Assembly (NCBI RefSeq): GCF_026278245.1
Contig: NZ_CP111079.1
Location: 2,234,501-2,298,500 of the forward strand
Source: Pontibacter kalidii
Lineage (GTDB): Bacteria > Bacteroidota > Bacteroidia > Cytophagales > Hymenobacteraceae
Length of the DNA: 64,000 nucleotides
Direction of reading: 5' to 3'
Below are positions 1-64,000 of this stretch, piece by piece. The notes beneath the pieces are model-generated. The model saw only the letters and a program-made list of their open reading frames with translations, did not search any database and was not told the origin of the DNA. Each line of letters starts with the position of its first letter. Within the stretch, counting starts at the first letter, position 1. A program made the position numbers and the translations under genes.

Positions 1-1086
1 ACGGTACTTGCCGTCCACATCCATGTAAGTGGTTGGCCCCAGGAAAGTATGGTACATGGCGGTGTAGAAGTTCACCAGGTCATCGGAGCGGAGCGCCTTT
101 ACCTGTATCTTGTTGAGCTCCTGGTTCCAGAGCGCCTGGCTTTGCTGCTTTACCTGCTCAAAGTCCCAGCCCGGCACCTCAGCCTGCATGTTGGCCAGTG
201 CCCCCTCGGTGCTGACCGGCGAGAGGGCGAACTTCACCTGCAGCTGCTCCCCTGCCTGCACATCAAAGTTAAAATAGGCGCGCAGCTTGGTGCCGGCAAA
301 CTCCGGGAAATCCTTCGTCTGGTCGAACTTACGCCAGAAGCCTTTGTATACCTGCGGCTCCGAGAAATCCTTGTTGCCATAGCTCTTGATCGGCTTGCTG
401 AAGGACATGGCAAAGTATACCGTGCGGGTGCGGGCCCAGCCGTTGGTCTGGCGGTAGCCAGTTACGAGGGTATCGTTCTCCACGCGCACAAAGGTCCACA
501 CGTTTTTGCCGTCGTAGTTATAGATGCCGTGCATCAGGTCCAGGATCACGTGCGCCTCCTCGGTTTTTGGGAAAGTATACTGGTGCATGCCCACGCGGTT
601 GGTGGCGGTGAGTTCGGCGGTGATGTTGTGGTCGTCGAGCTGTACTTTATAGTACCCCGGTTCGGCAAATTCATTTTGGTGAGAAAAAACGGAGCGATAG
701 CCGCTCTCGGGCCGATCTTCGGTGCCCGGATTTAGCTGCAGCTCGCCGGTGGTGGGCATCAGCAGGAAATCCCCCAGGTCGGAGTGACCGGTGCCGCTGA
801 AATGCGTGTGGCTGAAGCCGACAATGGTGGGGTCGTCGTACTGATAACCCGCGCAGTATTTATAGACATCCTTGTTATACTTGCCATCCACCGCATACGG
901 TATGGTATCGGTGTCGGGACTAAGCTGCACCATCCCGAAGGGCACGGTGGCACCGGGGTAAGTATGGCCCATCTTGGCCGTACCGATCATGGGATTCACA
1001 TACTTTACCAGGTCCTGCGGGCTTTTAGACTGTGCCATCGCCAGCAGGGGCAGCAGGAGAAGTACCGTCAGAAATGTCTTTTTCAT
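1..1086 (-). CDS. GH92 family alpha-mannosidase, N-terminal part (runs off the left edge)
   Basis: Reading leftward from an ATG at 1086, 362 codons are open to the window edge, so the C-terminal half is missing. Residues 1-19 form a signal peptide (KKTF followed by a Leu-rich core ending AMA). The mature start VNPMIGT, then PGATVPFGMVQLSPDT and GFSHTHFSGTG, are hallmarks of glycoside hydrolase family 92, the Ca-dependent exo-mannosidases common in Bacteroidota that trim alpha-mannose from N-glycans or yeast mannan. The catalytic acids lie in the unseen C-terminal part. Export to periplasm or surface is inferred from the signal. No SusC/SusD pair is visible nearby. Confidence 0.9.
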   Translation of the reverse strand, partial: MKKTFLTVLLLLPLLAMAQSKSPQDLVKYVNPMIGTAKMGHTYPGATVPFGMVQLSPDTDTIPYAVDGKYNKDVYKYCAGYQYDDPTIVGFSHTHFSGTGHSDLGDFLLMPTTGELQLNPGTEDRPESGYRSVFSHQNEFAEPGYYKVQLDDHNITAELTATNRVGMHQYTFPKTEEAHVILDLMHGIYNYDGKNVWTFVRVENDTLVTGYRQTNGWARTRTVYFAMSFSKPIKSYGNKDFSEPQVYKGFWRKFDQTKDFPEFAGTKLRAYFNFDVQAGEQLQVKFALSPVSTEGALANMQAEVPGWDFEQVKQQSQALWNQELNKIQVKALRSDDLVNFYTAMYHTFLGPTTYMDVDGKYR

Positions 1087-1265
1087 ACGTTAGGGGAGCT
1101 TATACTTTAGAGCGAATCGCTAAAGATAAAATTTACTTTATTAAACTCCTCTTCCACAGTATAAAAGCTACGGCTCCGGCGAGGTGCCGGCCATCCAACC
1201 TCAAACCTTATAAAGTGGAAGCTGTTAAGCAGGGAATAACCATACACAAACGAAGAACAAATACC

Positions 1266-2339
1266 ATGTCTATACTTTTCTCCCCCCTCACCCTCCGGGG
1301 CATCACCTTTAAAAACCGTATTGCCGTGTCGCCCATGTGCATGTACAGCAGCCAGGATGGCTTCGCTACCGATTGGCACCTGGTACACCTGGGCAGCCGG
1401 GCCGTGGGTGGCGCCGGACTGATTATTGCAGAGGCCACTGCCGTCGTGCCGGAAGGCCGTATTACGCCGCACGACCTGGGCATCTGGAAGGATGAACACA
1501 TCGAAGGGCTGCAGCGCATTACGAATTTTATCTCCGAGCAAGGATCCGTACCGGGTATACAGCTTGCCCACGCGGGCCGTAAAGCCAGCCACCGCCGCCC
1601 CTGGGAGGGCGGAGCAGCCATACTTCCGGAAGAGGAGAACGGCTGGCAAACCGTGGCCCCCAGTGCTATTCCGTTCTCTGAGGAAAACCCGGTGCCGCAC
1701 GAAATGACGCTGCAGGAGATCGAGGATTTTAAGGATGCTTTTGAAGCTGCTGCCATACGTTCGCTGAAGGCAGGTTTTAAAGTGATCGAGATACATGCCG
1801 CACACGGCTACCTGCTGCACGAATTCTATTCCCCGCTCAGCAACCAGCGCACCGATAAGTATGGCGGCTCCTTTGAGAACCGCATCCGGCTGCTGCTGGA
1901 GGTAACCGAGCGGGTGCGGCAAGTATGGCCGGAGGAGCTGCCGCTGCTCGTGCGTATCTCGGCCACCGACTGGACGGATGGCGGCTGGACCGGCGAAGAC
2001 TCCGTGGCGCTGGCCAAAGAACTAAAGAAGCTGGGCGTAGATCTGATCGACTGCTCCACCGGGGCCAACGTGCCACGCGCATCCATACCCGTTGGGCCTG
2101 GCTATCAGGTGCCATTTGCCGAGCAGGTGAAGCAGCAGGCAGGTATACCGACAGGCGCCGTGGGCGTGATTACGGAGGCAAGGCAGGCGGAGGAGATTCT
2201 GGCAAAGGGGCAGGCCGATATGGTGCTGCTGGCTCGCGAGCTGCTCCGCGACCCATACTTCCCGATGCACGCTGCCCTGGAACTAGGTGCCGAGCACGCC
2301 TGGGCACCGCAATATGAACGCGCCAAGCCCCGCTCCTAG
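1266..2339 (+). CDS. namA: NADH:flavin oxidoreductase, old yellow enzyme of the YqjM/NamA class
   Basis: 357-residue FMN-dependent TIM-barrel ene-reductase that reduces activated C=C bonds with NAD(P)H. The start MSILFSPLTLRG fits the family N terminus; the frame is open further upstream, but that stretch overlaps the divergent GH92 start region and is not family-like. The SPMCMYSS motif carries the Cys and Tyr typical of the YqjM class (Cys tunes the flavin redox state), and HAAHGYLLHEFYSPLSNQR contains the two active-site His. A C-terminal phosphate-binding stretch (GVITEARQAEE) precedes the usual Arg-rich tail. Cytosolic, probably electrophile or oxidative-stress detoxification. The symbol is by family resemblance. 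Confidence 0.9.
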   Translation: MSILFSPLTLRGITFKNRIAVSPMCMYSSQDGFATDWHLVHLGSRAVGGAGLIIAEATAVVPEGRITPHDLGIWKDEHIEGLQRITNFISEQGSVPGIQLAHAGRKASHRRPWEGGAAILPEEENGWQTVAPSAIPFSEENPVPHEMTLQEIEDFKDAFEAAAIRSLKAGFKVIEIHAAHGYLLHEFYSPLSNQRTDKYGGSFENRIRLLLEVTERVRQVWPEELPLLVRISATDWTDGGWTGEDSVALAKELKKLGVDLIDCSTGANVPRASIPVGPGYQVPFAEQVKQQAGIPTGAVGVITEARQAEEILAKGQADMVLLARELLRDPYFPMHAALELGAEHAWAPQYERAKPRS

Positions 2340-2394
2340 CCCGAACAAGTATACCCAGCGGCCGTTAAAGTATCACATCCTAATACCTATAAGT

Positions 2395-2679
2395 ATGAGC
2401 GCAGAAATAATTCATGATGAGGAAGACCTCCGGTTCTACATACCCTTCGGAGAGGAAGAGGCGGAACTGACCTACTCTTACACCGAGGACAAAATCCTCG
2501 ACTTTGAACATACCTTTGTGCCGGACAGCCAGCGTGGCAAAGGCCTGGCAGGCAAGCTGGTAAAGAAGGGGCTGGAGTTTGCCAGGTCGAATAAATACAA
2601 GATCATCCCCTCGTGCCCGGTGGTGGAGGCCTACATTGAGCGCTACCCGGAGTACAAGAAGATCGTGCATCCTGTTTAA
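2395..2679 (+). CDS. Small GNAT-type N-acetyltransferase (YidJ/COG2388-like)
   Basis: 94-residue protein. The central VPDSQRGKGLAGKLVKKGLEFARS is the acetyl-CoA pyrophosphate-binding loop (Q/RxxGxG/A) of minimal GNAT folds, and the C-terminal IIPSCPVVEAYIERYPEY matches the compact COG2388 subgroup, including its conserved Cys-Pro. I start at the ATG at 2395 because this gives the usual family N terminus and avoids overlap with the upstream oxidoreductase, which ends 55 bp before. The substrate is unknown for the family. A terminator follows. Confidence 0.85.
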   Translation: MSAEIIHDEEDLRFYIPFGEEEAELTYSYTEDKILDFEHTFVPDSQRGKGLAGKLVKKGLEFARSNKYKIIPSCPVVEAYIERYPEYKKIVHPV

Positions 2680-2737
2680 GGTATAAATTGCAATGGCATT
2701 GTTGCCATACTTCATAAAACAGCTATCTTAGCTACTA

Positions 2738-2774
2738 CATCCTGCTTAAAGTAATTTAGGCAGGATGTTTTTTT
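2738..2774 (+). terminator. Rho-independent terminator after the GNAT gene
   Basis: CATCCTGC (2738-2745) pairs with GCAGGATG (2760-2767), followed by seven T. It lies between two same-strand genes, so the M1 peptidase downstream should have its own promoter. Confidence 0.8.
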
Positions 2775-2798
2775 GATGATCACCCTTAAAACGTATTT

Positions 2799-4445
2799 AT
2801 GAAAACTCCTCACATAGTCCGTACACTGGCGCTGGGCGGCATACTTTCCCTGGGTGCCACAGCGGTGCAGGCGCAGGAATATACCCGCCAGGACACACTG
2901 CGCGGCAGCATTACCCCAGAGCGCGCCTGGTGGGACCTCTCCTTTTACCACCTCAACGTGGCTGTAAACCCGCAAGACAGCAGCATCTCAGGCAGCAACA
3001 CCATCCGCTACAAAGTGCTGGAGCCGCAGCAGCGCATGCAGGTGGACCTGCAGCCTCCTATGCGCATCCAGCGGGTAACGCAGAACGGCAAAGAGCTACA
3101 GGTGCAACAGGACGGAAATGCCTGGTTTGTGCAGCTGCAGGAGCCACAGCAAGTGGGCCAGGAGAAAGAGGTTGAAGTATACTTTGGCGGTAAACCACAA
3201 GTCAGCGTAAACCCGCCCTGGAGCGGCGGTATTACTTGGGCCCGGGACGCCAACGGCAATCCCTGGATAGCCAACTCCAACCAAGGCGACGGCGCCAGCC
3301 TCTGGTGGCCCAACAAGGACCACATGTACGACGAGCCGGACAGCATGCGCATCAGCGTGCGGGCGCCGAAGGGTTTGATGGACGTGAGCAACGGCCAGCT
3401 GAAGGGCGTGCAGGAGCATCCGGACGGCAGCAAGACCTACACCTGGTTTGTAGCCAACCCGATCAACAATTATGGCGTGAACCTGAGCATCGGTGATTAT
3501 GCCCACTTCTCTGACACCTATCTGGGCGAGAAAGGAGAATTGGACTTGAACTTTTACCCGCTAAGCTACAACCTCGAAAAGGCTAAAAAGCAGTTTACGC
3601 AGACACACCAGATGCTGCAGGCCTTCGAGCACTGGTTCGGCCCCTACCCTTTTTATGAGGATGGCTTTAAGCTGATAGAGGTGCCGTACCTGGGCATGGA
3701 GCACCAGAGCGCGGTAACCTATGGCAACGGGTACCAAAACGGCTACCGGGGCCGCGACCTGAGCGGCACGGGCTGGGGACTTAAATTCGACTTCATCATC
3801 ATACACGAGGCGGGGCACGAGTGGTTTGCCAACAACATCACTTACAAGGATGCCGCTGACATGTGGATACATGAGAGCTTCACCAACTACTCCGAGTCCC
3901 TTTTCCTGGATTACCACTACGGCACCAAGGCGGCGAACGAGTACGTGATCGGGCTGCGGAACATCATCCAGAACGACAAGCCGATCATTGGCGTGTATGG
4001 TGTTAACAAGGAAGGCTCCGGCGATATGTACCCGAAAGGAGCTAACATGCTGCACAACCTGCGCCAGATCACGAACAACGATGAAAAGTGGAGAAGCATC
4101 CTCCGCGGCCTGAATCAAGAGTTCTACCACCAGACGGTAACCACGCAGCAGATCGAGGACTACCTGAGCCAGCACATCGGGCGCGACCTGACACCGGTGT
4201 TCGACCAGTACCTGCGCGATGTGCGCATTCCGAGGCTGGAGTATAAAGTAGATGGCAAAAAGCTGCAGTACCGCTGGGCCAACGCAGTAGACAACTTCGA
4301 CATGCCGGTGAAAGTATACCTGAACGGCAAGGAGCAATGGCTGGAGCCAACCACCCAGTGGCAGGAGTTGAAGGTAAAGAAGAGAACCAAGGTTGAGGTG
4401 GATCCGAACTTCTATGTAACAGCGCAAAACACGAAGGCAGCCTAA
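2799..4445 (+). CDS. Secreted M1-family zinc aminopeptidase
   Basis: 548 residues. Residues 1-25 are a Sec signal peptide ending in VQAQ. An N-terminal beta domain is followed by the exopeptidase motif as GMEHQ (299-303), then HEAGH (336-340) with the third zinc ligand E359 in WIHESFTNY, i.e. HExxH-18x-E. Length and order match gluzincin M1 peptidases lacking the long C-terminal ARM-repeat domain; a short beta region (about 460-548) ends the protein. It would trim N-terminal residues from peptides in the periplasm or outside. It sits alone between two terminators. Confidence 0.93.
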   Translation: MKTPHIVRTLALGGILSLGATAVQAQEYTRQDTLRGSITPERAWWDLSFYHLNVAVNPQDSSISGSNTIRYKVLEPQQRMQVDLQPPMRIQRVTQNGKELQVQQDGNAWFVQLQEPQQVGQEKEVEVYFGGKPQVSVNPPWSGGITWARDANGNPWIANSNQGDGASLWWPNKDHMYDEPDSMRISVRAPKGLMDVSNGQLKGVQEHPDGSKTYTWFVANPINNYGVNLSIGDYAHFSDTYLGEKGELDLNFYPLSYNLEKAKKQFTQTHQMLQAFEHWFGPYPFYEDGFKLIEVPYLGMEHQSAVTYGNGYQNGYRGRDLSGTGWGLKFDFIIIHEAGHEWFANNITYKDAADMWIHESFTNYSESLFLDYHYGTKAANEYVIGLRNIIQNDKPIIGVYGVNKEGSGDMYPKGANMLHNLRQITNNDEKWRSILRGLNQEFYHQTVTTQQIEDYLSQHIGRDLTPVFDQYLRDVRIPRLEYKVDGKKLQYRWANAVDNFDMPVKVYLNGKEQWLEPTTQWQELKVKKRTKVEVDPNFYVTAQNTKAA

Positions 4446-4466
4446 CCCTGCCGTATTATACCCCTA

Positions 4467-7053: not shown

Positions 7054-8463
7054 ATGGCTGGCACTTCGCACACCAATGTTAAAACACCCGCTTCGCAGGA
7101 AGTAACCGAGAACTACAGAGGTCCTCTGGTTACCGTAACCCTTCTCTTTTTCATGTGGGGGTTCATCACCTGCCTCAACGACATCCTCATACCGAAACTA
7201 CAGCAGGTGTTCACGCTGGAGCTATGGCAGGCGATGCTCATACAGACAGCTTTCTTCGGGGCTTACTTCTTCGTCTCGCTCCTATACTTTATCCTCTCCA
7301 TCACCAAAGGAGACCCTATCCGCCAGATCGGGTACAAAAACGGCATCATTGTCGGGCTGATCGTGGCGGCGGTGGGCTGTGCGTTGTTTTACCCGGCGGC
7401 CTCTACGCTGAGCTACGGCTTCTTCCTCGGCGCTTTGTTCGTGCTGGCCTCGGGCATCACCATCCTGCAGATAGCGGCTAACCCCTATGTGGCCATACTT
7501 GGCCCGCAGGAAGGAGCTGCCAGCCGCCTGAACATGACGCAGGCCCTGAACTCGCTGGGAACCACGGTGGCCCCTATCATTGGCGGTTACCTTATCTTCG
7601 GTGCGGTAAACGCTACGGACACCGGTGCCGACTCCGTGAAAATGCCGTACCTGGGCCTGGCTGCCACCCTGCTGGCCATCGCACTGCTCATTAAAGTCTC
7701 GAAGCTGCCCAGCATACAGAACACAGACGAGATTACGCCAGGCGCAGGCGCCCTGCGGTACCGCCACCTGGTGCTGGGCATCATCTGTATTTTTGCCTAT
7801 GTGGGTGGTGAGGTAGCCATTGGCAGCGCGCTCATTAACTTCTTCAGGCTGCCGGAAATTGCCGGCCTGGAGGAGGCAGAGGCCGGGCACTTCCTAGCCT
7901 TTTACTGGGGAGGTGCCATGGTGGGCCGATTCTTTGGCGCCGTAGCCCTCTCTAACTCGAAAAACGCTGGCGGAAAGTATATCGTGATGGGCGGCATTGC
8001 GGCAGTGGTATTTGTGCTATTATACTTTGCCTACGGCTTAAACGAGGCCCTGATTGTGCTGGGCCTGATCGCCCTGAATTTTGCCGTGCTAATGTTGGGC
8101 CGCTTTATCCCGAACAGAACACTGGGCTACTTTGCCGCCACCGTGGTCGTGCTGCTGCTCATTACCAGCTTTGCCTCCGGCGCGGTGGCCATGTGGTCGG
8201 TTATTGCCATCGGCCTATTCAACTCCATCATGTTCCCAACGATCTTCACGCTGGCTATCAAAGGCTTGGGCGTGCATACCAGCCAGGCCTCTTCGCTGCT
8301 GGTGATGGCTATTGTGGGTGGCGCCATTGTGCCGCCGCTGCAGGGCGCCGTGGCCGACATTACCGGGGACCTTCAAATATCGTTCCTGGTGCCGCTGGTG
8401 TGTTACCTCTACATCATGTACTATGGTTTCTCCGGATCAAAGATTACTGACGAGACGATCTAA
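7054..8463 (+). CDS. Sugar MFS transporter, FucP/GluP (glucose-galactose) type
   Basis: 469 residues with about 12 hydrophobic segments. LLFFMWGFITCLNDILIP in the first helix, the AANPYVAILGP segment and SRLNMTQALNSLGTTVAPIIGG are characteristic of the FucP subfamily (fucose/glucose/galactose:H+ symporters). Residues 1-25 are a cytosolic tail. It follows galM by 187 bp with no terminator between, so co-transcription is likely. Specificity for glucose/galactose over fucose is inferred from galM. The stop codon overlaps an AAGTATAA motif. Confidence 0.92.
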   Translation: MAGTSHTNVKTPASQEVTENYRGPLVTVTLLFFMWGFITCLNDILIPKLQQVFTLELWQAMLIQTAFFGAYFFVSLLYFILSITKGDPIRQIGYKNGIIVGLIVAAVGCALFYPAASTLSYGFFLGALFVLASGITILQIAANPYVAILGPQEGAASRLNMTQALNSLGTTVAPIIGGYLIFGAVNATDTGADSVKMPYLGLAATLLAIALLIKVSKLPSIQNTDEITPGAGALRYRHLVLGIICIFAYVGGEVAIGSALINFFRLPEIAGLEEAEAGHFLAFYWGGAMVGRFFGAVALSNSKNAGGKYIVMGGIAAVVFVLLYFAYGLNEALIVLGLIALNFAVLMLGRFIPNRTLGYFAATVVVLLLITSFASGAVAMWSVIAIGLFNSIMFPTIFTLAIKGLGVHTSQASSLLVMAIVGGAIVPPLQGAVADITGDLQISFLVPLVCYLYIMYYGFSGSKITDETI

Positions 8464-8481
8464 GTATAAACTTTTTCTTTT

Positions 8482-14162: not shown

Positions 14163-15026
14163 TCAATCCTCTATCAGTATCCCCAGCTTGCCCATCTGGT
14201 AATCGCGCATGGCCTGCATGATCTCGGTCTGGCTGTTCATCACGAAGGGTCCGCTGGCCACCACCGGCTCCTCCAACGGCTTACCCGCCATCAGCAGCGC
14301 CCGCGTGTTTTCCCTGGCCGTTAGGGTAATACCTTCCCCATCCTGGTTAAACAGCACCTGGTGCAGCCCCTCCACCAGGCCAAAGCCTGCTACCTGCACG
14401 GCGCCATCCAGCAAGTATAAAAAGGCGTTGTAGTTTTTTGGGAGCGGGAAAGTATGGCTGGCCCCCGCCTGTAGTTCCAGGCGCAGCGCCTGCACCGGAG
14501 ACTTAGCTCTGATGGGCCCGCTCGCGCCCCCGTGCTCACCTGCCACCACCTGCACGCTTACGCCCGCTGCCGTTACAGTAGGCGTGTCACCGGCCTGCAA
14601 GGCGAAATACTCCGGCTGGTCCAGTTTGTGTGCGGCGGGAGTGTTCACCCAAAGCTGAATGATTTCCTGCACCCCTCCCTGCTCCATGATGTCTTTTGGG
14701 GGCCGCTCGCTGTGCACGATGCCCCTGCCAGCGTTCATCCACTGTGTACCGCCGGCATACACCACGCTGTTGTTGCCGCGCGAGTCGCGGTGGTGCACCC
14801 CACCACGATACACAAACGTGACCGGGGAGAAGCCACGGTGCGGGTGCGGCCCCACACCGGTTTTATGCGGGAGAACGTGCTCCGGCATTTCATGGATGTG
14901 GTGGTGCAGCAGCAAAAACGGGTCTATCAGGTCTACCTGTTGTGTGGGGAAAGGCTGGCGCACCGGCATACCGCCCATATCAATGGTATCGGCGTAAAGC
15001 AGGCGGGCTACGGTTCTGTTCTTCAT
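14163..15026 (-). CDS. Pirin family protein
   Basis: 287 residues, a bicupin. The N-terminal cupin has PHPHRGFSPVTFVYRGGVHHRDS and a following Glu region (MNAGRGIVHSERP), the metal ligands of pirins. Pirins act as iron-dependent quercetin dioxygenases or redox-responsive co-regulators; which applies here cannot be told. Cytosolic. A single gene in a run of minus-strand units. Confidence 0.9.
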   Translation of the reverse strand: MKNRTVARLLYADTIDMGGMPVRQPFPTQQVDLIDPFLLLHHHIHEMPEHVLPHKTGVGPHPHRGFSPVTFVYRGGVHHRDSRGNNSVVYAGGTQWMNAGRGIVHSERPPKDIMEQGGVQEIIQLWVNTPAAHKLDQPEYFALQAGDTPTVTAAGVSVQVVAGEHGGASGPIRAKSPVQALRLELQAGASHTFPLPKNYNAFLYLLDGAVQVAGFGLVEGLHQVLFNQDGEGITLTARENTRALLMAGKPLEEPVVASGPFVMNSQTEIMQAMRDYQMGKLGILIED

Positions 15027-43364: not shown

Positions 43365-43678
43365 CAGAAATTTAAAGTATAGCCGCGTGTAATTGTGGCC
43401 AAAATACCTTTATTTTGATATAACTATACTTCACACCAGTTCTAGGGCTGTGCTTCGGGTACGGCGAGGGCTGGTGTGATTTTTTGTCTTAGAATGATAC
43501 TTGCTATACTTTGCCTGCCGCAAGTACAGCAAGTATAAACCTTACCCTTCTCCGCTCTTTCGGATTTCTGAATCCGGAACAGCGGAAGAAATTGAAGTAT
43601 AAAGTATAGGTATGGATCTCCCTTTCCTGGAGACTTACGCCAAAAATAACGCTACTAAAACATCAGCATTAACAGACT
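43365..43678. other. Gap after hppD with a dense AAGTATA cluster
   Basis: No gene. Contains about eight AAGTAT/ATACTT copies between 43375 and 43610 (by eye) and a possible hppD terminator: CACACCAG (43432-43439) with CTGGTGTG (43471-43478) then ATTTTTT, though the 31-nt loop is long. Confidence 0.5.
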
Positions 43679-45412
43679 ATGATAGATGCATCTATAAAAC
43701 AGAAAATTGACCAGTGGCTGTCCGGCAGCTACGACCAGGAGACGAAAAGCGAGATAAGCGGCATGCTGGAGCGCAATGAGCACGAGGCACTGTCAGATGC
43801 TTTTTACAAAGACCTGGAGTTTGGCACCGGCGGGTTGCGCGGCATCATGGGCGCCGGCAGCAACCGCATGAACCGCTATACTTTAGGTATGGCCACACAG
43901 GGCCTGTGCAACTACCTGAAGCAGAATTTTCCGGGGGAGCAGGTAAAAGTGGCCATCGCCCATGACTGCCGCAACAATTCCGATGTGTTTGCCCGCATCG
44001 CCGCTGAGATCTTCTCGGCCAATGGCATCAAAGTATACTTGTTCGAGGCACTGCGCCCAACGCCGGAGCTTTCGTTTGCCATCCGCCACCTGGGCTGCCA
44101 GAGCGGCGTGGTAGTAACAGCATCACACAACCCGAAAGAGTATAACGGCTATAAAGTATACTGGAACGATGGCGCCCAGGTGACCGCCCCGCACGACAAA
44201 AACATCATTGGCGAAGTAAACAAGATCACGTCCATCGACGAGGTGAAGTTTGAACCGAACCCGGCGCTGATCGAGCTGATTGGCCAGGAGTTGGATGAGG
44301 CCTACATGCAGGAAGTGCAGAAGCTGTCTATCTCCCAGGAGGCTATTAAACGCCAGCACGACCTCAAGATCGTGTTCTCTTCTATCCATGGCACGGGCAT
44401 TACGCTGGTGCCGGAGGTGCTACAGCGCTATGGCTTCACCAACGTGCATGTGGTGGAGGAGCAGGCTGAGCCGAACGGAGATTTCCCAACCGTGGTGTAC
44501 CCGAACCCGGAGGAGAAAGAAGCGATGACCCTCGCCCTGAACAAGGCGAAAGAGATCGACGCTGACCTGGTGCTGGCCACTGACCCTGACTCGGACCGTG
44601 TAGGCATCGCGGTAAAAAACCAGGAGGGCAACTTTGTGCTGCTGAACGGCAACCAGACCGGTGCCCTGCTCATTAACTACCTGCTGCAGGCCTGGCAGAA
44701 AGCCGGTAAACTCACGGGCAAGGAGTACGTGGTGAAAACGATCGTGACCACGGATCTCATCAAGGAGATTGCCGACAGCTACAACGTAACCATGTACGAA
44801 ACCCTGACCGGCTTCAAGTATATCGCGCAGCTCATCCGGGAGAAGGAAGGACAGGAAGTATACATTGGTGGTGGCGAGGAAAGCTACGGCTATATGATCG
44901 GCGACTTCGTGCGCGACAAGGACGCTATCTCGGCCTGCGCCCTGATCGCGGAGATGGCGGCCGTGGCCAAAGACAATGGCCAGAGCCTGTTCGAGATGAT
45001 GCTAGCCATGTACGAAAAGTATAACTTCTACAAAGAAGAGCTGGTGTCGATCACGAAGAAGGGGATGCGCGGCGCAGAGGAGATTCAGCAGATGATGGCC
45101 GACATGCGCAGCAACCCGCCAAAGCAAATAGCCGGCTCCGACGTGGTGGAAGTGCGCGACTACAAGATGAGCACACGCAAACTTATCCTGACGGGCGAAG
45201 AACACAAGCTGGACCTGGAGAGCTCGAACGTGCTGCAGTACCTGACCAAAGACGGAAGCAAAATATCGGCTCGCCCGTCCGGCACCGAGCCCAAGATCAA
45301 GTTCTACATCAGCGTAAATGAGCCCCTCGCCTCTGCCGCTGACTACCACGCCACGGAGCAGAAGCTGAACCAGAAAATCGAGCAGATGCTGAAAGACCTG
45401 AAGCTGAAGTAG
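43679..45412 (+). CDS. Phosphoglucomutase/phosphomannomutase (alpha-D-phosphohexomutase)
   Basis: 577 residues. FGTGGLRGIMGAGSNRMN opens domain 1; the phosphoserine is S149 in TASHNPKEYNGYKVY; Mg site DPDSDRVG; sugar loop GGGEESYGY; C-terminal phosphate loop RPSGTEPKIKFY. Length matches the long PgcA-type mutases that link glucose-1-P and glucose-6-P. A strong terminator follows. Single gene. Confidence 0.94.
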   Translation: MIDASIKQKIDQWLSGSYDQETKSEISGMLERNEHEALSDAFYKDLEFGTGGLRGIMGAGSNRMNRYTLGMATQGLCNYLKQNFPGEQVKVAIAHDCRNNSDVFARIAAEIFSANGIKVYLFEALRPTPELSFAIRHLGCQSGVVVTASHNPKEYNGYKVYWNDGAQVTAPHDKNIIGEVNKITSIDEVKFEPNPALIELIGQELDEAYMQEVQKLSISQEAIKRQHDLKIVFSSIHGTGITLVPEVLQRYGFTNVHVVEEQAEPNGDFPTVVYPNPEEKEAMTLALNKAKEIDADLVLATDPDSDRVGIAVKNQEGNFVLLNGNQTGALLINYLLQAWQKAGKLTGKEYVVKTIVTTDLIKEIADSYNVTMYETLTGFKYIAQLIREKEGQEVYIGGGEESYGYMIGDFVRDKDAISACALIAEMAAVAKDNGQSLFEMMLAMYEKYNFYKEELVSITKKGMRGAEEIQQMMADMRSNPPKQIAGSDVVEVRDYKMSTRKLILTGEEHKLDLESSNVLQYLTKDGSKISARPSGTEPKIKFYISVNEPLASAADYHATEQKLNQKIEQMLKDLKLK

Positions 45413-45822: not shown

Positions 45823-46407
45823 ATAAGCTGTAGCTATCGAACTGATCCCAGTCCTTGGGTTGAGCGCCTTGTAGATTTCTGGTTTCGCTTTAGCGAAATT
45901 GCGGAGACCGCAGGTCAAGCAAAGGAAATGTACACCGCGCGATGCCCTTATCGAGGGCCCCTACCCCCAGGACGAGCCCTCTCGGGCTGGAGAGCACCAA
46001 AGTATACTATGAAACAATTAAGGTTGTAAAGCTGTGGATGAACGGCAGCTAGCAAGTATAGCTTGCCTCCAGTTGTAGGAAGCAGGGGCTAAAGGCACAA
46101 ACGGACGCTTGCGCCAGTGAAAGTATAGCAGCAAGTATAAACTGAAGTATAAAAGTATAGCCTAAGTATGAAGCACGGCTCTCCGAGCAAGTCGAGTTAC
46201 ACACCCGACATCATAGAAGGCACGCGCGCCAGCGATAGGTATAGCTCGTGTCAAGCTGCGGGAAGCGAAAGTTATGGAAGTATAGCCCAAGTATAACATA
46301 TGGCCGCAGCAGTTTTTAACCGGGTCCGGATAACATTTTCATACTTCAGCAGCTTTGTTAATAGATGCCTATATTTACCAGGGGCTGAAAAAAGAAAAGC
46401 ATAACAC
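45823..46407. repeat. Gene-free stretch with an AAGTATA array
   Basis: No gene seen. Between about 46000 and 46350 I count about ten AAGTAT/ATACTT copies, several spaced by only 10-15 bp (46118-46170). GCTTTAGCGAAATTGC-type short inverted segments also occur near 45885. Confidence 0.55.
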
Positions 46408-46995
46408 ATGAACACACTATTCCAAAGTATAAAACAGGTAATCGAAACGCGCCGCACCACCAAACCACCCAAGATGAACGGGCAGCGCATACCTGATGAG
46501 CAAATTACACAGCTGCTGCAGCTCGCCGACTGGGCCCCTACCCACGGCCACACCGAACCCTGGCGGTTTATAGTGTATGCCGATAAGGCCCTGAAAACCT
46601 TCTGTCAGAACCACGCTGAGCTGTACCGGCAAAACATCCCTTCCGAAAAGTTTATGCCTGAAAAGTATGAAAAACTGCAGCACATGGGCGAGAAGGCGTC
46701 GCACATTTTAGTAGCTTACATGCGCCGCGGTGATCTGCCCAAGATACCGGAACTGGAGGAAATTGCCGCCACCTCCTGCGCCATTCAGAACCTGTTGCTG
46801 GGCGCCTCTGCCCTGGGCATGGCCACGTACTGGGGCTCCGGAGGCATGGCCTATCATCCAAGTATGAAAAAGCACCTGCAGTTGCGCGAGCAGGACGTGG
46901 TGCTGGGCATCTTATACCTGGGCTACGCTGAGAATGCCGCCTACCAGGGCAAGCGTAACGTGCCGCTGCAGGAAAAGGTAATGTGGGTGAAATAA
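46408..46995 (+). CDS. Nitroreductase family protein (YdjA-like)
   Basis: 195 residues. IETRRTTKPPKMNGQRIPDEQI binds FMN phosphate; LADWAPTHGHTEPWRFIVY, CAIQNLLLGASALGMATYWGSGG and VVLGILYLGY are family blocks. Short size fits the compact YdjA class with NAD(P)H-dependent reduction of nitro or quinone compounds. It follows the repeat-rich gap; pgk is downstream with its own -7 box. Confidence 0.9.
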   Translation: MNTLFQSIKQVIETRRTTKPPKMNGQRIPDEQITQLLQLADWAPTHGHTEPWRFIVYADKALKTFCQNHAELYRQNIPSEKFMPEKYEKLQHMGEKASHILVAYMRRGDLPKIPELEEIAATSCAIQNLLLGASALGMATYWGSGGMAYHPSMKKHLQLREQDVVLGILYLGYAENAAYQGKRNVPLQEKVMWVK

Positions 46996-52669: not shown

Positions 52670-54580
52670 CTAATCCTTTACCTCCAGCTTCCCACTCTCC
52701 TGGTAGCGCAGCCTGCCCACGTCCACTAGCTCACGGATGAGCTCGGTTACTGCCTCGGCGTGCCGGGGTTCGAACTGCTGCACCAGTTCCTTGGGAAGAT
52801 AAGGGCGCACCTGCACCAGTTCCATTAATTTGAGGCGCAAAACCGCATGGTCCTCCTGCTTTCGCTGCTTCTTACGCACGGCCAGGCAGTAGTCGCAGAT
52901 GCGGCAGCTCGTGTCAGAGATCTCCCCGAAATACTCCAGCAGCAGTTGGGTGCGGCAGCGGTTCTGCGTCTGTACATAGCGGCCCATCTCCCTGGCTTTT
53001 TGCAGGGCTCTCTCGCGCAAACTCTCCAGCTTTCTGGTGTTTGTAATAACCCTGCTGGCATCCTCCCGAGGGGCCGTAAAGACAAGTTGGGGCGCATCGT
53101 GCTGCGGCTCGTAGTTGATGACCTGCAGCTTGTGCAGGTACTCCAGCTTTCGGCGTAGCTCCTGCTCGGGCACCTTCAGCAGCTCGGCCATCTTCCCCTC
53201 CCGCACCTTCACAAAGTTCACAAAAACCTCTCCGCCATACATCCGGAGTATAAGCTGTATGAGTTTGTCGTGTTCCGGGTTCTTAAGCTGAAAGCTGTAA
53301 AGCTCCGTATTCTCCAGAATTACCATCAGGCGGGAAGGCAGGTAGTAACTCTCGTTCAGCTGCAGGTACCCCTCCTGCTCCAGCCGCTTAATGGCGTGGT
53401 GGGTTTCCAGCGGGTTCAGTTTATACTGCTTGGCAAACTCTGCGACATCAAAATCAAAACTGCTGAACTGCCCGCTGCCCACGGCCAGCTGGTAGTAGTT
53501 GGCCAGGCATTGGTATACCCTGCGGATAAACTCTACCGGCGGGTGCGATTCCTCCACTTTCCGCTGCAGCTCCGCCACATCGTTGGGCCCGACAAGTATG
53601 GTGGCGTAGGCATAGCGCTCATCGCGGCCGGCACGGCCAGCCTCCTGGTAGTATGCCTCCAAACTCTCGGGCAGGTCCAGGTGCACTACCAGCCGCACGT
53701 CCGGCTTGTCGATGCCCATGCCGAAGGCATTGGTCGCCACCATCACGCGCACCTTATCCTCTACCCACAGCTGCTGCACTGCGCTTCGCTCCTGGAACTT
53801 TAGACCGGCATGATAGGCGGCGGCAGAAATGCGGCGGCTCTGCAGAAACCTGGCTATCTCCACGGTTTGGCGGCGGCTGCGCACATACACGATGCTTTGG
53901 CCGGGCATGCGTTGCAGGATCTCCAGCAAGCGGTTTGCTTTAGCCTCGGTCTCCAGGCACGAATAAGATAAGTTGGCTCGGGCGAAGCTCTTTTGGAAAA
54001 CGTTTGGCTTCGGGAACTTCAGCTTTTCCTGTATGTCCTGCTTTACCTGTTCTGTGGCCGTGGCGGTAAGGGCGATGACAGGCACGTTGGGCAGCAATGC
54101 TCGCAGCTCGGCTAGCTGCAGGTACGGCGGCCTGAAGTCATACCCCCAATGTGAGATACAGTGCGCCTCATCCACGGCAATCAAACCCACTTTCATGCGC
54201 TTTACCCGCTCCTGAAACAGGTCGGTGAGCAGGCGCTCCGGAGATAAGTATAAAAATTTAACACCTCCGTACACGCAGTTATCCAAGGCAATGTCTATCT
54301 CGTGGCGACTCATGCCCGAGTATACTGCTGTGGCAGATACACCTCGCTTTTTCAGGTTCTCCACCTGGTCCTTCATCAAGGCGATGAGGGGCGTAATAAC
54401 CAGGCAAATGCCATCCAGCGCCATGGCCGGCACCTGAAAGCAGATCGACTTGCCGCCACCCGTTGGCAGCAGGGCCAGCGTGTCCTGCCCCGCCAGCACC
54501 GAGGCTACAATATCCTCCTGTAACGGCCGGAAACTGTCGTAGCCCCAATAGGTTTGAAGTATGTGGTGGATGTCTTGCAA
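52670..54580 (-). CDS. recQ: ATP-dependent DNA helicase RecQ
   Basis: 636 residues. Walker A TGGGKS (40-45), DEAH box (137-140), helicase motifs TATAT and GRAGRD, then the RecQ-Ct zinc site (CRTQLLLEYFGEISDTSCRICDYC, about 540-565) and a winged helix. The usual C-terminal HRDC domain is missing; the protein ends in a short helical domain (LPKELVQQFEPRHAEAVTELIREL). 3'-5' unwinding in recombination and fork repair. Single gene. Confidence 0.95.
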   Translation of the reverse strand: MQDIHHILQTYWGYDSFRPLQEDIVASVLAGQDTLALLPTGGGKSICFQVPAMALDGICLVITPLIALMKDQVENLKKRGVSATAVYSGMSRHEIDIALDNCVYGGVKFLYLSPERLLTDLFQERVKRMKVGLIAVDEAHCISHWGYDFRPPYLQLAELRALLPNVPVIALTATATEQVKQDIQEKLKFPKPNVFQKSFARANLSYSCLETEAKANRLLEILQRMPGQSIVYVRSRRQTVEIARFLQSRRISAAAYHAGLKFQERSAVQQLWVEDKVRVMVATNAFGMGIDKPDVRLVVHLDLPESLEAYYQEAGRAGRDERYAYATILVGPNDVAELQRKVEESHPPVEFIRRVYQCLANYYQLAVGSGQFSSFDFDVAEFAKQYKLNPLETHHAIKRLEQEGYLQLNESYYLPSRLMVILENTELYSFQLKNPEHDKLIQLILRMYGGEVFVNFVKVREGKMAELLKVPEQELRRKLEYLHKLQVINYEPQHDAPQLVFTAPREDASRVITNTRKLESLRERALQKAREMGRYVQTQNRCRTQLLLEYFGEISDTSCRICDYCLAVRKKQRKQEDHAVLRLKLMELVQVRPYLPKELVQQFEPRHAEAVTELIRELVDVGRLRYQESGKLEVKD

Positions 54581-58152: not shown

Positions 58153-58218
58153 CAAAAAATTTGCCGTTGATGGATAGCGTATACGATGGAAGCCTTCCCA
58201 TACTTGCCGGCAAGCGGG

Positions 58219-59301: not shown

Positions 59302-59483
59302 AAAACCACATTTTAAATGAATCAACCTGTGCAAAGGCAAAGTATACTTTGTTACTGATTACACGTAAAGCACGTTACACAAAGAGTCCGGAAGCACAGA
59401 CGGGCAGCTTATATTTTAAAAACACTTTACTTGAAATTAAGCCGACAAAGGCGTACTTTCGTGCGTCCATTAAAACTGAAAGC

Positions 59484-60686
59484 ATGAACATACACGAATA
59501 TCAGGCTAAAGAAATTTTAAAGAGCTACGGAGTACGTATCCAGGAGGGTATCGTGGCTGAGACGCCAGACCAGGCCGTAAAAGCCGCCATGAAACTGACT
59601 GAGGAGACCGGCACAGGCTGGCACGTGATCAAGGCACAGATCCATGCGGGAGGCCGTGGTAAAGGTGGTGGTGTGAAACTGGCCAAGAACCTGGATCAGG
59701 TGAAGCAGATCGCCGACCAGATCCTGGGCATGACGCTGGTAACGCACCAGACAGGCCCTGAAGGCAAGCTGGTACAAAAGGTGCTTGTTGCACAAGACGT
59801 ATACTACCCTGGCGAGTCTGATCCGAAGGAGTTTTACCTGAGCATCCTGCTGGACCGCGCTAAAGGTCAGAACGTAATCATGGCCTCTACAGAAGGTGGT
59901 ATGGACATCGAGGAAGTGGCTGAAAAGACCCCTGAGAAAATTATCAAGGAGTGGATCGACCCGGCTGTAGGTCTGCGCCCTTTCCAGGCCAGCAAGATCG
60001 CTTTCGCGTTCGGCCTGCAGGGCGAAGCCTTCAAGGAGATGGTGAAGTTCATCACCAGCCTTTACAAGGCGTATGTGGAGACGGACTCTTCCATGTTCGA
60101 GATCAACCCGGTACTGAAGACCTCCGACAACAAGATACTGGCAGTAGATGCCAAAGTGGACCTAGACGACAACGCCTTGTTCCGTCATAAGGACTTAGCT
60201 GCCCTGCGCGATACTTCAGAAGAAGATCCGTTAGAAGTTGAGGCAAGCGCGTCTAACCTGAACTACGTGAAGCTGGACGGCAACGTAGGCTGCATGGTAA
60301 ACGGTGCCGGGCTTGCGATGGCCACCATGGACATCATCAAGCTTTCTGGCGGCGAGCCTGCTAACTTCCTGGACGTAGGGGGTGGGGCAAACGCACAGAC
60401 GGTTGAGGCTGGTTTCCGCATCATCCTGAAAGACCCGAACGTGAAGGCTATCCTGATCAACATCTTCGGCGGTATCGTTCGTTGCGACCGTGTGGCCAAT
60501 GGTGTGGTTGAGGCCTACAAGAACATCGGTGACATCAACGTGCCGATCATCGTTCGTCTGCAGGGAACAAACGCCGAAGAAGGTGCCCGCATCATCGACG
60601 AGTCTGGCCTGAAGGTATACTCTGCCGTAGCGCTGAAAGAAGCCGCTGAGAAAGTTGAGCAGGTACTGGCTGAGGTTGGTGCTTAA
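59484..60686 (+). CDS. sucC: Succinyl-CoA synthetase, beta subunit (ADP/GDP-forming)
   Basis: 400 residues from [20 protein letters not shown]-grasp domain (1-240) with [15 protein letters not shown] and [30 protein letters not shown]; CoA-ligase domain with [34 protein letters not shown] and [16 protein letters not shown]. It makes succinyl-CoA or ATP in the TCA cycle. sucD is not adjacent, a common Bacteroidota arrangement. It ends at a 50-bp perfect palindrome. Confidence 0.97.
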
Positions 60687-60698
60687 TCAGCATATCAT

Positions 60699-60748
60699 CA
60701 TAAAAACAGAAGGGGCTGCCAGTACTGGCAGCCCCTTCTGTTTTTATG
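60699..60748. terminator. 50-bp perfect palindromic terminator
   Basis: Every base from 60699 to 60748 is symmetric around AGTACT (60721-60726); outer TTTTTATG/CATAAAAA arms give T-runs on both strands. It separates sucC from the convergent ohr gene. The following 60750-60836 segment has simple CTCAAACTC-type repeats. Confidence 0.92.
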
Positions 60749-60836
60749 CGCTGGAAGTTTAAGAGTTGAGGAGTTTATAGAGTAAAGAAAGTTTATCTCA
60801 TCACTCTTAAACTCCTCTACTCTCAAACTCGCTAAC

Positions 60837-61253
60837 TCAAACAACTTCCAGTTCCACATTGATATTGCCCCGCGTGCCGACAGAGTAAGGACACACCTCG
60901 TGCGCTTCATTTACCAACTGCTCTGCTTTCTCTTTGTCGAGTCCCTGCAGGTGCACCTCCAGCTTCACGCCCAACCCGTATTTCCCGTCTTCAGACTTGA
61001 GCAGATCCACATGCGCCTTTACAGTAGACTCCGGATTCAACCTGATATGCTGCTTACCGGCTACGAGCAGTAACGCGCTCTGAAAGCAGGCGGCATACCC
61101 TGCAGCGAATAGTTGCTCGGGGTTAGACTTCCCCTTCTCACCTCCCAGCCCCTCGGGCAATGAGAGCGGCATATCGAGTACGCCATCTGATGACAAAATA
61201 TGACCTCGGCGACCTCCTGTGGCAGTAACCTCTGCCGTATACACTGTTTCCAT
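60837..61253 (-). CDS. ohr: Organic hydroperoxide resistance protein (Ohr)
   Basis: 138 residues, OsmC fold. The reactive Cys56 in GYAACFQSAL and resolving Cys121 in HEVCPYSVGTRGN; TATGGRRGHILSSDG and PLSLPEGLGG with NPEQLFAAGYAA are Ohr-type rather than OsmC-type. It reduces lipid and organic peroxides using lipoyl thiols. No OhrR repressor is adjacent. Confidence 0.95.
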   Translation of the reverse strand: METVYTAEVTATGGRRGHILSSDGVLDMPLSLPEGLGGEKGKSNPEQLFAAGYAACFQSALLLVAGKQHIRLNPESTVKAHVDLLKSEDGKYGLGVKLEVHLQGLDKEKAEQLVNEAHEVCPYSVGTRGNINVELEVV

Positions 61254-61425
61254 AGCTTTCTGATTTCATTTGCTTGATTTGAAATATTATTTATTAACTC
61301 TCAAATTCTGCTTATTGTTTTAGGTATGAAGCGATTAAGAGTGCATTATCCTATTATACCTTCCCGCTATACCTTTCTGCATTATAATTATCGCCACTAA
61401 AATTTCCTTTTTAGCGCATTGTTTC

Positions 61426-61433
61426 TATTTTTG
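61426..61433 (+). promoter_or_regulatory. -7 box for tRNA-Arg
   Basis: TATTTTTG, exact TAnnTTTG, ending 11 bp before the tRNA. Confidence 0.55.
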
Positions 61434-61444
61434 CAACACGGTAA

Positions 61445-61518
61445 GCACCCGTAGTTCAATTGGATAGAATATCGGATTTCGGCTCCGAGGGTTAGGGGTT
61501 CGAATCCTCTCGGGTGCA
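61445..61518 (+). tRNA. tRNA-Arg (anticodon TCG)
   Basis: 74 nt without CCA. Acceptor GCACCCG/CGGGTGC, D-arm with AGTTCAATTGGATAGAAT, anticodon stem TCGGA/TCCGA with loop TTTCGGC (anticodon TCG at positions 34-36), T-arm AGGGG-TTCGAAT-CCTCT. It reads CGA and probably other CGN codons. A terminator follows, then decayed mobile-element DNA. Confidence 0.93.
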
Positions 61519-61533
61519 CAAGTACAATTTCAG

Positions 61534-61568
61534 GCGCTAGCTACTTTAATAGTGGCTAGCGCTTTTTT
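61534..61568 (+). terminator. Terminator after tRNA-Arg
   Basis: GCGCTAGC (61534-61541) pairs with GCTAGCGC (61555-61562), extended by ACT/AGT after one mismatch, then T6. Confidence 0.88.
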
Positions 61569-61781
61569 GTTTCCATACTGGCTACTTTCGACCTTTTTGC
61601 AGTCCATATACCGTAAAGACAGAATACTCTAAATAGTATAATATTTATATTTTACCCCCTTTACTTAGCCAGGGTATGGGCAGCTTGAATATATGAAGCC
61701 GTTTCGGCCGCTGCAGGGCCAGCGTCTTTAGCTGCCTCGCTCCTTGTTGCCGTCCTCTCCTCCGTTGAGTTCGGCAGGTAG

Positions 61782-62057
61782 GTGGTCGATGGCCCGGACT
61801 GCAGGATAGAACGTAGAGCCTTCCTCTGTGAGATACGGAGCATCCGCCGTGCCCTGAAGCGGGAAGAGGAAGGGCACCGACCTTTCCCTGAGGTGCGCCA
61901 GATTAGCCAGGCAGTGGTGCAGCGGAATTACCTGCAGGTCAAGCAGGACGTGCAGGATATCGTGCAGTCCGAGGTGGAGCGGGTGCTCCATGATCCAGCG
62001 CTGGCGCACCTGGTAATCAGAAGGGAGACGTTAACACGGCATCACCCGTCTCCATAG
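61782..62057 (+). CDS. Unclassified remnant-like ORF next to tRNA-Arg
   Basis: 91 codons; the central helical, charged part (VRQISQAVVQRNYLQVKQDV) looks protein-like, the ends do not. No family recognised. It lies in a region of broken frames between a tRNA and a transposase fragment, so it is probably part of a decayed element. Nothing else is seen in 61569-61781. Confidence 0.3.
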   Translation: MVDGPDCRIERRAFLCEIRSIRRALKREEEGHRPFPEVRQISQAVVQRNYLQVKQDVQDIVQSEVERVLHDPALAHLVIRRETLTRHHPSP

Positions 62058-62133
62058 CCGCTGGGGGAATGAGTGAAGCGGCTAGGCCACCGTTGAGCCG
62101 GTGATGGGGCGAGCAGCCCGAGATGTTGCGGGC

Positions 62134-62310
62134 ATGCGGGAGGTCAGCACCCTGGGACCCGGGCTGGTCCACGAAAGAGTGAATTTTGGCCGCTACAGCC
62201 TATACCCTGCAGAAACTGCTGCGCTTCAGTGAGACGGCCGGCATGGCCCTGCCCAGGCCCGATATGGAGGCGCTTTTCAAGGAAACTTTGGAAAGCCAGG
62301 TGACTTCAGC
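62134..62310 (+). pseudogene. Transposase C-terminal fragment with a frameshift
   Basis: One frame gives GLVHERVNF (near 62164-62192), and the next frame continues ILAATAYTLQKLLRFSE, which together resemble the C-terminal end of IS5/IS1182-group transposases (AxAYNLxKLLxF). A stop in each frame at the junction shows the copy is dead. No terminal repeats or N-terminal part could be found. Confidence 0.4.
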
Positions 62311-62345
62311 CCCTGCGGGGGCAACGGCCTGTCACTCCCCTGCTA

Positions 62346-63947
62346 TTACTTTGTGTTTCCTGCATCGGCAATGGTGATGAAAGTGATGCTTGTTGCTGGC
62401 AGTTGCACCTCGCCGGCTTTTACGGCTTTTCCTGAAAAGACCGGCAGCTCACCATTCTTCCCTAACTGTAGTTCCTGTCCGTTTAATTGTACCGTGGTGC
62501 CCTGAAGTTCATTCGAAGTTAGCGTGTACTGTTCTGCATTTGAAGGGATAGTGATAGGCACTGCTGTTTTGTTGGTATTGATAGCTAAAAGCGTCATGCC
62601 TCCCTGTAGTCCCTTCATGTTATGCGCAAACAAATAAACGCCTGGTGCTCCGGCGCCTGCGTCATACACTTCTGTGCCCATTAACCTGTTCCACAACAAA
62701 GCTGCCCAGTAATTGGGTTTGGGCAAATGCGTATCCTGATCTATCAGGCTGTATTCACTTGCCACCAGGGTATTGTGCATGATTACCTTAATATCTTTTT
62801 TTGCCAAAGAACCCATCTGGTATAAATAGCGGAAGGTATCCAGATAAGTCGCTGCATAAGGATCGCCGCCCCCCGCCGCCTGGGCTGTTTCTGTGATCCA
62901 AACAGGCGCGCCCGGCAGGTATTTATGCCGCATGTCTGTGTAAAAATCAGCTGCAAGATCTGTCCGTTCCAACCAGGTTGAGTCAAGGGCGTTTTCAGGT
63001 TTAATGGAAAATGGTCCGCTGCGTATCATGCGCACGGAGCCAGCACCGTAAAAGTGATATGAAAACACATCAAAAACCGGTTTAGGTTCTGCCGACATCA
63101 GGGCTTCTGTAGAGAGTATTTTGACGCCAAGCTCTGCAAAGGAGATACCCGGAATACCTTCCCCCACAGTACCGGGACCAAGAGTCAACATACCGGGCAC
63201 TTCTCTTTCTACCCAGGCATTAAAAAAAGCTACATCCTTCGCAAAATCGCTGGCATCATAGGCCGTATCTATCTCGCCTCCTGCCGTGGGCATGGTGGGT
63301 TCATTAAACAGTTCGGCTGCAGCAATTTCTCCCCCCAGGCTTTTGGTATAGTTGACAAGTTTCTCTGCTTCCTTTGGCGTCCAGACGCCCTGATCATCCC
63401 GCACTCCATTAGACACGGCAAAGGAGGTAACCAGCTTACCGTCGGTTTCTTTTACAAAGTCAATCACGCCTTTCCATTGGTCACGTGTCAGTACGTTTAC
63501 AAAACCTTCCGGTGCTTTTGCCATCAGAGGTTTGTCATTGTCCTGGAAATAGATGGCATTGGCCCAGGTGCCACTGACCCGCACATAAGCGGGCGCAAGG
63601 CCTTTGGCTAAGGTTAGTAATCGTTTATCGGTCAGATCAACGGGTTCAAGCTTCCGGTACAATTGCTCGTTCTTCTGAGAAATGTCGTAGGTCGATACTG
63701 CCTCTAAAGAAGGCAGGCTGTCCATCATTTTATAGGGCCTCCAGAATTCGCCCCCAACTACTTCTACCATTTCCACATTATAGGATTGGTAGCGTTCATC
63801 TACTTCGCCTATTTTTTTCATTTCAGAAAGGTTGATTTCAATCATAGAACTGTCAGCATTAGTGTCCGAATAGCTTCCTGAATTGCAGGAACCTAAAAAT
63901 GCAGAAACCGAGAAAACGATCAGTGCGCTGAGTTTACAATGATTCAT
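62346..63947 (-). CDS. Heparanase-like GH79 family glycoside hydrolase lipoprotein
   Basis: 533 residues. Lipobox LGSC (Cys21) after a Ser/Ala-rich signal. The (beta/alpha)8 domain has AYVRVSGTWANAIYF, acid/base Glu216 in AELFNEP (N215-E216) and nucleophile Glu353 in VWITETAQAAGGG; MHNTLVASEYSLID and YWAALLWNRLMGTEVY continue the heparanase/beta-glucuronidase order, ending in a C-terminal beta domain (about 450-533). It would cleave uronic-acid-containing glycans at the cell surface. No SusC/SusD is adjacent. Starts at 63947 with 53 bp of AT-rich sequence to the edge. Confidence 0.85.
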   Translation of the reverse strand: MNHCKLSALIVFSVSAFLGSCNSGSYSDTNADSSMIEINLSEMKKIGEVDERYQSYNVEMVEVVGGEFWRPYKMMDSLPSLEAVSTYDISQKNEQLYRKLEPVDLTDKRLLTLAKGLAPAYVRVSGTWANAIYFQDNDKPLMAKAPEGFVNVLTRDQWKGVIDFVKETDGKLVTSFAVSNGVRDDQGVWTPKEAEKLVNYTKSLGGEIAAAELFNEPTMPTAGGEIDTAYDASDFAKDVAFFNAWVEREVPGMLTLGPGTVGEGIPGISFAELGVKILSTEALMSAEPKPVFDVFSYHFYGAGSVRMIRSGPFSIKPENALDSTWLERTDLAADFYTDMRHKYLPGAPVWITETAQAAGGGDPYAATYLDTFRYLYQMGSLAKKDIKVIMHNTLVASEYSLIDQDTHLPKPNYWAALLWNRLMGTEVYDAGAGAPGVYLFAHNMKGLQGGMTLLAINTNKTAVPITIPSNAEQYTLTSNELQGTTVQLNGQELQLGKNGELPVFSGKAVKAGEVQLPATSITFITIADAGNTK

Positions 63948-64000
63948 AGAATCTGATGTTTAAAAAGCTATATTCCGTACTGCCGAAACTATTTTCAGTT

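Follow-up and report, generated by a model that had tools for sequence, protein, structure and literature searches.

AAGTATRR, an abundant dispersed word with lineage dialects in Pontibacter, is a candidate DNA uptake sequence

Short words by which bacteria recognize their own DNA during uptake are known from two proteobacterial families, both of which possess type IV pili. The neisserial DNA uptake sequence (DUS) is 10-12 bp long, is recognized by ComP, a pilin of the type IV pili, and frequently occurs in inverted pairs that act as terminators, while the uptake signal sequence of the gammaproteobacterial Pasteurellaceae is spread over the genome, lies mostly inside genes and is linked to competence and a pilus-type machinery. 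In the Neisseriaceae, the DUS exists as dialects that share a core and follow the phylogeny, with one genome carrying two dialects and some members carrying none (PMC3630211, in excerpt). Here, a word of a similar kind, AAGTATA, with the extended core AAGTATRR, is described from Pontibacter kalidii (Bacteroidota, Hymenobacteraceae). It was noticed in a stretch of 64,000 nucleotides, hereafter the window (C1:2234501-2298500 of a two-contig genome of 5,054,860 bases; window GC 53%), and is probably a DNA uptake sequence.

Like the DUS, the Pontibacter word is short and present in thousands of copies, it has lineage variants that fit the phylogeny and share a core, and there are both two-dialect genomes and wordless members (DUS side from the same excerpt). 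Unlike the DUS, it has a core of 8 bp, the pilus motor was not found, and inverted pairs at stem-loop spacing are lacking; because the motor was not found, the label of a neisserial-type DUS is not applied. With the uptake signal sequence it shares the genome-wide, mostly intragenic distribution, but differs from it in sequence and length. Cyanobacterial highly iterated palindromes (HIP1 and the alternate HIPs) are likewise dispersed, extremely abundant, replaced by lineage-specific alternates and near-absent in some lineages (PMC4390886, in excerpt), but they are GC-rich palindromes tied to methyltransferases, whereas the Pontibacter words are non-palindromic and show no matching pattern in two methyltransferase families.

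Within the Bacteroidota, the closest comparison is Riemerella, in which competence has been reported, R. columbina prefers its own DNA (PMC7965970, in excerpt), and a helix-hairpin-helix (HHH) protein is essential for transformation (PMC8459023, in excerpt). Pontibacter shares with Riemerella the combination of a Bacteroidota ComEC and an HHH protein; according to the excerpted parts of both reports, Riemerella has in addition four essential proteins unlike known machinery. DUF5689, a domain of one essential Riemerella transformation protein in the same excerpts, does not track the Pontibacter motif. Unlike the motif described here, the words in the excerpted Riemerella k-mer table are all A/T-rich, and the uptake word is left open there; this open question aside, the excerpted open-licence literature gave neither an established uptake word nor a dispersed motif for Bacteroidota.

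The initial annotation of the window had reported a large excess of AAGTAT, with an estimated 35-40 copies in the first 11.6 kb. Counting gives 40 copies there and 184 in the whole window on both strands (96 + 88), against 24 expected by base composition, and the excess extends genome-wide, far beyond the window. By the same expectation, the window holds 125 copies of AAGTATA on both strands versus 5.7, and 65 of AAGTATAA versus 1.3. The whole genome carries 8,861 copies of AAGTATA, balanced between the strands (4451 forward + 4410 reverse), while the reversed word, used as a control, is not enriched and occurs 356 times (170 + 186). A chromosomal sample of 444 kb contains 734 copies of AAGTATA against 57.8 expected from a second-order Markov model, and 262 of AAGTATAAA against 4.5, which is 58x over expectation; nearly all top-scoring words of lengths 7-10 in this sample are overlaps of AAGTATA and its extension. 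Two outcomes had been named that would have spoken against the motif, a count near expectation and an equal enrichment of AT-rich words. Since AAGTATA is far above expected and the reversed word is not enriched, neither was observed; other AT-rich words are not equally enriched in the sample.

The shape of the word was measured in 743 kb pooled from ten genomes bearing AAGTATA (AAG genomes). The AAGTATAA core is 28x enriched, and any substitution at positions 1-6 lowers this to 0.9-4.4x, while positions 7 and 8 are relaxed, the former taking G (9.7x) and the latter G (13x) or C (7x). With its switch-like positions 1-6, the core, 8 bp long and written AAGTATRR, reads like a recognition site. 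Neither AAGTATAA nor the related words AGGTATAG and AACTATAG are palindromic. Among motif pairs separated by 60 bp or less, 185 are tandem, 72 convergent (15 of them in the overlapping form AAGTATACTT) and 49 divergent, with no preference of inverted pairs for stem-loop spacing.

Genes were called with an own hexamer caller rather than taken from curated annotation, and the frame test compared them with a shuffle that preserves each protein and its codon usage. The observed and shuffled counts of AAGTATA are 96/27.6, 50/9.9, and 71/2.5 in the sense classes and 43/3.9, 71/11.7, and 81/4.2 in the antisense classes. All six frame/orientation classes are therefore 3.5-28x above the shuffle, and the earlier statement that the motif is found on both strands, inside and between genes, and in every frame holds. 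The reported overlap with stop codons is also seen, with AAGTATA at the stop of 23 of the 362 called genes, 4 of which are in the window. Several of the longest motif-free gaps lie over conserved housekeeping genes that were recognized by eye only, namely ftsA-ftsZ, atp, ribosomal protein, and succinate dehydrogenase genes.

A comparison with sister genomes had been proposed, and it returns different but related words across 50 genomes of the genus. Dialects were scored from whole-genome counts of AAGTATA, AGGTATA, and AACTATA, at least 7x over the reversed word. By this measure, 20 genomes carry AAG only, 12 AGG only, 4 AAC only, and 3 both AAG and AAC (G054, G069, and G091), and 11 have no clear dialect; among these last, G134 gives a weak GGTATAA signal, G040 gives TATATAA, and G007 is weak for AAG. 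An apparent second word in G013, ATAGTATA, was rejected as a perfect CTATA microsatellite with a 5-bp unit and 23.8 copies (L113 941-1059). On a tree of 41 of the 50 genomes, built from the single competence gene ComEC and not from a core genome, the AGG bearers (7 rows) form one starred clade, and the AAC and two-dialect bearers (5 rows) form another. The four-state dialect label requires 5 changes on this tree, against a mean of 20.3 and a minimum of 16 in 500 shuffles, and presence or absence of a word requires 3, against 10.0 with a minimum of 7.

The turnover of sites was followed in aligned genes around comEC from 20 genomes, the comparisons not being independent of one another. An AAG site is matched by AAG in 149 of 298 comparisons between AAG genomes. 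In the 179 comparisons with AGG genomes, the same sites hold AGG in 6, AAG in 4, and something else in 169, and in-place conversion from one dialect to another, which had been considered, is thus rare (AAG to AGG, 6/179). Sites of a genome's own dialect are retained at higher rates than control 7-mers containing six A/T (AAG 0.49 versus 0.35, AGG 0.63 versus 0.34, AAC 0.49 versus 0.28). Off-dialect sites are not better kept (AAG in AAC genomes 0.24 versus 0.28; AGG in AAG genomes 0.17 versus 0.35); where a genome has no dialect, retention of AAG words is 0 of 19. What is kept seems to be the density of the motif and not its position.

The plasmids differ from the chromosome. AAGTATA reaches 1.64 per kb and 12.5x expectation on the chromosome (461 kb), versus 0.27 per kb and 1.4x on the resident 73.8-kb plasmid. 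The latter is the second contig of the assembly. A 20-kb query from this contig matched, at 95%, a plasmid of P. actiniarum that carries conjugation-type genes, and the contig bears ORFs that read by eye as transposase-like. On the P. actiniarum plasmid itself AAGTATA is at 2.8x (100 of 204 kb) and on a P. akesuensis plasmid at 1.5x (50 of 116 kb), to be read with the reservation that the chromosomal dialects of these two species were not measured. A motif-free segment of 38% GC is also present in G000 (L243 2750-5519). One of its ORFs was read by eye as coding for a KAP-like P-loop protein, and the segment is possibly acquired DNA.

The frame test, the dialects, and the plasmid gap support selection or drive at the level of the DNA behind the motif, as the initial annotation had supposed, and among the functions it listed, an uptake or recognition sequence is the one favored by the data. 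Taken together, the occurrence in all frames, the strict core, the dialects, the two-dialect genomes, the wordless lineages, the turnover of sites, and the plasmid gap resemble the dialects of the neisserial DUS. From this pattern, preferential uptake, and with it competence, a receptor and its kind, and the mechanism of the drive, may be inferred as follows. A sequence-reading component of natural transformation in Pontibacter would prefer extracellular DNA bearing the word, and the imported pieces would recombine into the chromosome by way of ComEC, the ComEA-like HHH protein, and the usual recombination proteins. As word-bearing alleles would be taken up and copied more than wordless ones, the word would accumulate over evolution in all frames and gaps, with the smallest gain apparently in genes under strong constraint and almost none in plasmids. 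Were the reading component to shift its preference, a new dialect (AGGTATAG or AACTATAG) would gather at new places while the old one decays.

If this is correct, sequence-specific uptake would have evolved again with another machine, in a phylum and genus without a recognizable pilus motor. The word would then be a genomic marker for competence where competence has rarely been shown, and the host's own word a possible route for bringing DNA into environmental Bacteroidota that are hard to transform. Genomes between dialects would also make the evolution of bacterial mating barriers directly observable.

A ComEC match is present in 50 of 50 genomes; a stop interrupts its frame in G009 and in G021, and in G018 the frame is 561 aa long compared with about 700 in most others. 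A ComEA-like frame of 304-346 aa with HHH repeats is found in 49 of 50, being broken in G021. In this last genome, ComEC (L260) is split over two frames, while of the 14 other genes queried, the 6 with a match in that stretch align in one piece, and the HHH gene (L297) is in three pieces, with 7 neighbors aligning in one piece. At 1.0 per kb, AAGTATA is sparser in G021 than in the other eight genomes of its ComEC clade; G020, placed elsewhere, has 0.8. G021 has possibly lost competence recently, although a sequencing fault could also explain the split genes.

A number of observations weigh against an uptake sequence. The 11 genomes without a clear dialect retain their ComEC and HHH matches, and therefore the competence genes do not predict the motif. 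Conversely, G009 has a high AGG count despite its broken ComEC reading, and G018 is the strongest AAC bearer by ratio, yet its ComEC is the short one; abundant words beside a broken or short ComEC either speak against a simple link or reflect recent loss or draft errors. For the PilB/PilT/GspE motor ATPases, only short partial P-loop matches were obtained in the 50 genomes, 3 of them just over the cut-off, and so the known uptake machine of the bacteria bearing a DUS or uptake signal sequence seems to be missing. Of the 50 genomes, 22 have DUF5689, which comes in two architectures that differ from each other, is not in G000, and does not fit the distribution of the words. Both PilB/PilT and DUF5689 were thus rejected as parts of the machine, the former as not found and the latter as not correlated. 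No surface receptor was recognized beside ComEC in G000 or beside the HHH gene among the ORFs, which were read by eye. The spacing of the motif is clumped (coefficient of variation 1.33) and not even, and regular spacing was rejected. Rare off-dialect words at conserved coding positions are more widely common, some of them to several dialects, and some words persist across dialects: AGG words of AGG genomes compared with AAC genomes are matched by AGG in 24 of 162 cases. Finally, 121 of 362 control 7-mers are at least as conserved as the dialect word for AAG, 72 of 416 for AGG, and 31 of 166 for AAC; because many single control words are equally conserved, conservation supports an uptake sequence on average only.

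The main rival of the uptake sequence is a HIP-like origin linked to methylation, in which an orphan methyltransferase together with linked repair would create and keep the word and the dialects would follow the specificity of the methyltransferase. HIP1 and the alternate HIPs are indeed lineage-specific words with cognate methyltransferases (PMC4390886, in excerpt), and G000 carries one PF01555 match and six PF07669 matches. HIPs, however, are palindromic and the Pontibacter cores are not. PF01555, present in 31 of 50 genomes, has no visible relation to dialect and is absent from the 4 AAC-only genomes, and strong hits to PF07669 occur sporadically, with none in 3 of these 4; the comparison covers these two families, with type I, Dam-like, and C5 enzymes outside it. 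The plasmids without the word also argue against such an origin, although their recent arrival could explain this, and on balance a methylation-linked word appears unlikely.

The remaining explanations are weaker. The initial annotation had also offered a nucleoid-protein or regulator site, and AAGTATA is denser between genes (3.49 per kb) than within them (1.13 per kb), which would suit the binding site of a nucleoid-associated protein or genome-wide regulator. Such a site is nevertheless improbable, given hundreds of intragenic copies in all frames, positions that are mostly lost on a change of dialect, and divergent gaps, which hold promoters, that are poorer in AAGTATR (4.35 per kb) than convergent ones (7.39 per kb); rewiring thousands of sites several times within a genus would also be implausible. 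Slightly less credible again is a Chi-like or KOPS-like site that orients recombination or segregation, or a self-mark read by a defense nuclease. Chi and KOPS are polar, with a strong leading-strand bias. The word resembles Chi in being short, non-palindromic, species-specific, and plasmid-poor, but replication polarity is not seen (593 leading versus 556 lagging, in 22 stretches with the strand taken from the sign of the GC skew), and its density of about 1.6 per kb is much above that of Chi. Mutation bias or an artefact of composition, for which the A+T-rich letters of the word speak and nothing else, is excluded by the k-mer controls: the reversed word is not enriched, a plasmid in the same genome lacks the word, and enrichment over composition rises in GC-rich genes, with AAGTATR at 2.0 per kb in genes above 54% GC and 1.2-1.5 in lower bins, the opposite of what its letters predict.

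Words of a comparable kind also occur beyond the genus. Whole-genome counts of ACCTAGG, a word containing CTAG, which is usually rare in bacteria, are 5,096, 5,341, and 5,823 for genus g18 (three genomes) and 8,746 and 6,326 for genus g19 (two genomes), the largest in the set. Among 150 genomes of the family, 5 exceed 5,000 copies, G092 has 666, 11 have 205-468, and 133 have fewer than 200. A site reading ACCTAGGT scores on both strands in these counts. With the reversed control word scarce in some of the GC-rich genomes, the evidence is copy number and not a ratio. In L156, L266, and L268 (G042 and G051), ACCTAGG is dispersed at high density. A scan of 20-40 kb samples from 24 genomes of other genera gave nothing clear in most samples and the candidate words GGGGTAGG (G086), GGGCTAGC (G067), and GAAGTAGG (G039), with a further candidate, CGCTAGGG, in the Hymenobacter record L005. 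When aligned on an S-TA core, AAGTATAA, AGGTATAG, AACTATAG, ACCTAGG, and these four candidates can be placed together; this cross-genus alignment was made after the fact, and chance could account for it. Strong words without a TA core were found in 20-kb samples of genus g19, AGGGCCCC (G108, L280) and AAATTCAT (G127, L282). Whether the Hymenobacteraceae possess a pilus-independent, sequence-reading uptake system, with words that drifted around a shared S-TA core and a new class of sequence-specific DNA-binding surface receptor, is evenly balanced on these data; on that reading, G054, G069, and G091 would be genomes in which a switch of dialect is in progress.

The record L005 (Hymenobacter sp. 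BT559) contains 37 copies of CTAGCG in 21.7 kb, 14 of them as CCTAGCG, a candidate dispersed word. Another candidate comes from a different family, in L006 (Spirosoma profusum), where AACGTATC and ACGTAGCA are dispersed in 13 and 10 copies over 21.8 kb. The signal of AAGTATGA in L012 (Bacteroidales UBA1756, 14441-14530) was rejected, being mostly a tandem array at multiples of 7 bp that mimics a motif.

The features of the window, in its own coordinates, are the following.
1..64000, both strands: AAGTATA, 125 copies, dispersed over genes and gaps.
3175..3184: overlapping opposite pair AAGTATACTT, with copies at 3175 (+) and 3178 (-).
8462..8468, + strand: AAGTATA across the stop codon of an MFS-transporter-like gene (7054-8463).
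43595..43608, + strand: head-to-tail pair AAGTATAAAGTATA, with copies at 43595 and 43602, preceding the phosphoglucomutase-like gene at 43679.
43679..45412, + strand: phosphoglucomutase/phosphomannomutase-like gene, 92% identical to a Pontibacter mucosus record.
46000..46431, + strand: densest cluster, 9 AAGTATA, all + (46000, 46054, 46121, 46133, 46145, 46153, 46278, 46289, and 46425); 8 precede the ORF starting at 46408 and one lies at the ORF start.
52670..54580, - strand: RecQ-family helicase gene, given as context only.
59350..64000: motif-poor stretch clipped by the window end; the last copies of AAGTATR lie just before it, at 59340 and 59343, and its genes include one recognized by eye as the succinyl-CoA synthetase beta subunit.

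The placement in Pontibacter comes from one protein of the window: it is 92% identical to a record of Pontibacter mucosus, two further Pontibacter records reach 87% and 86%, and none of the remaining 77 among the 80 loci retained exceeds 64%. Shewanella, the host first supposed, was rejected on this evidence. An ORF of 533 aa on the - strand (window 62346-63947) has no NCBIfam match, and its start reads by eye as lipoprotein-like.

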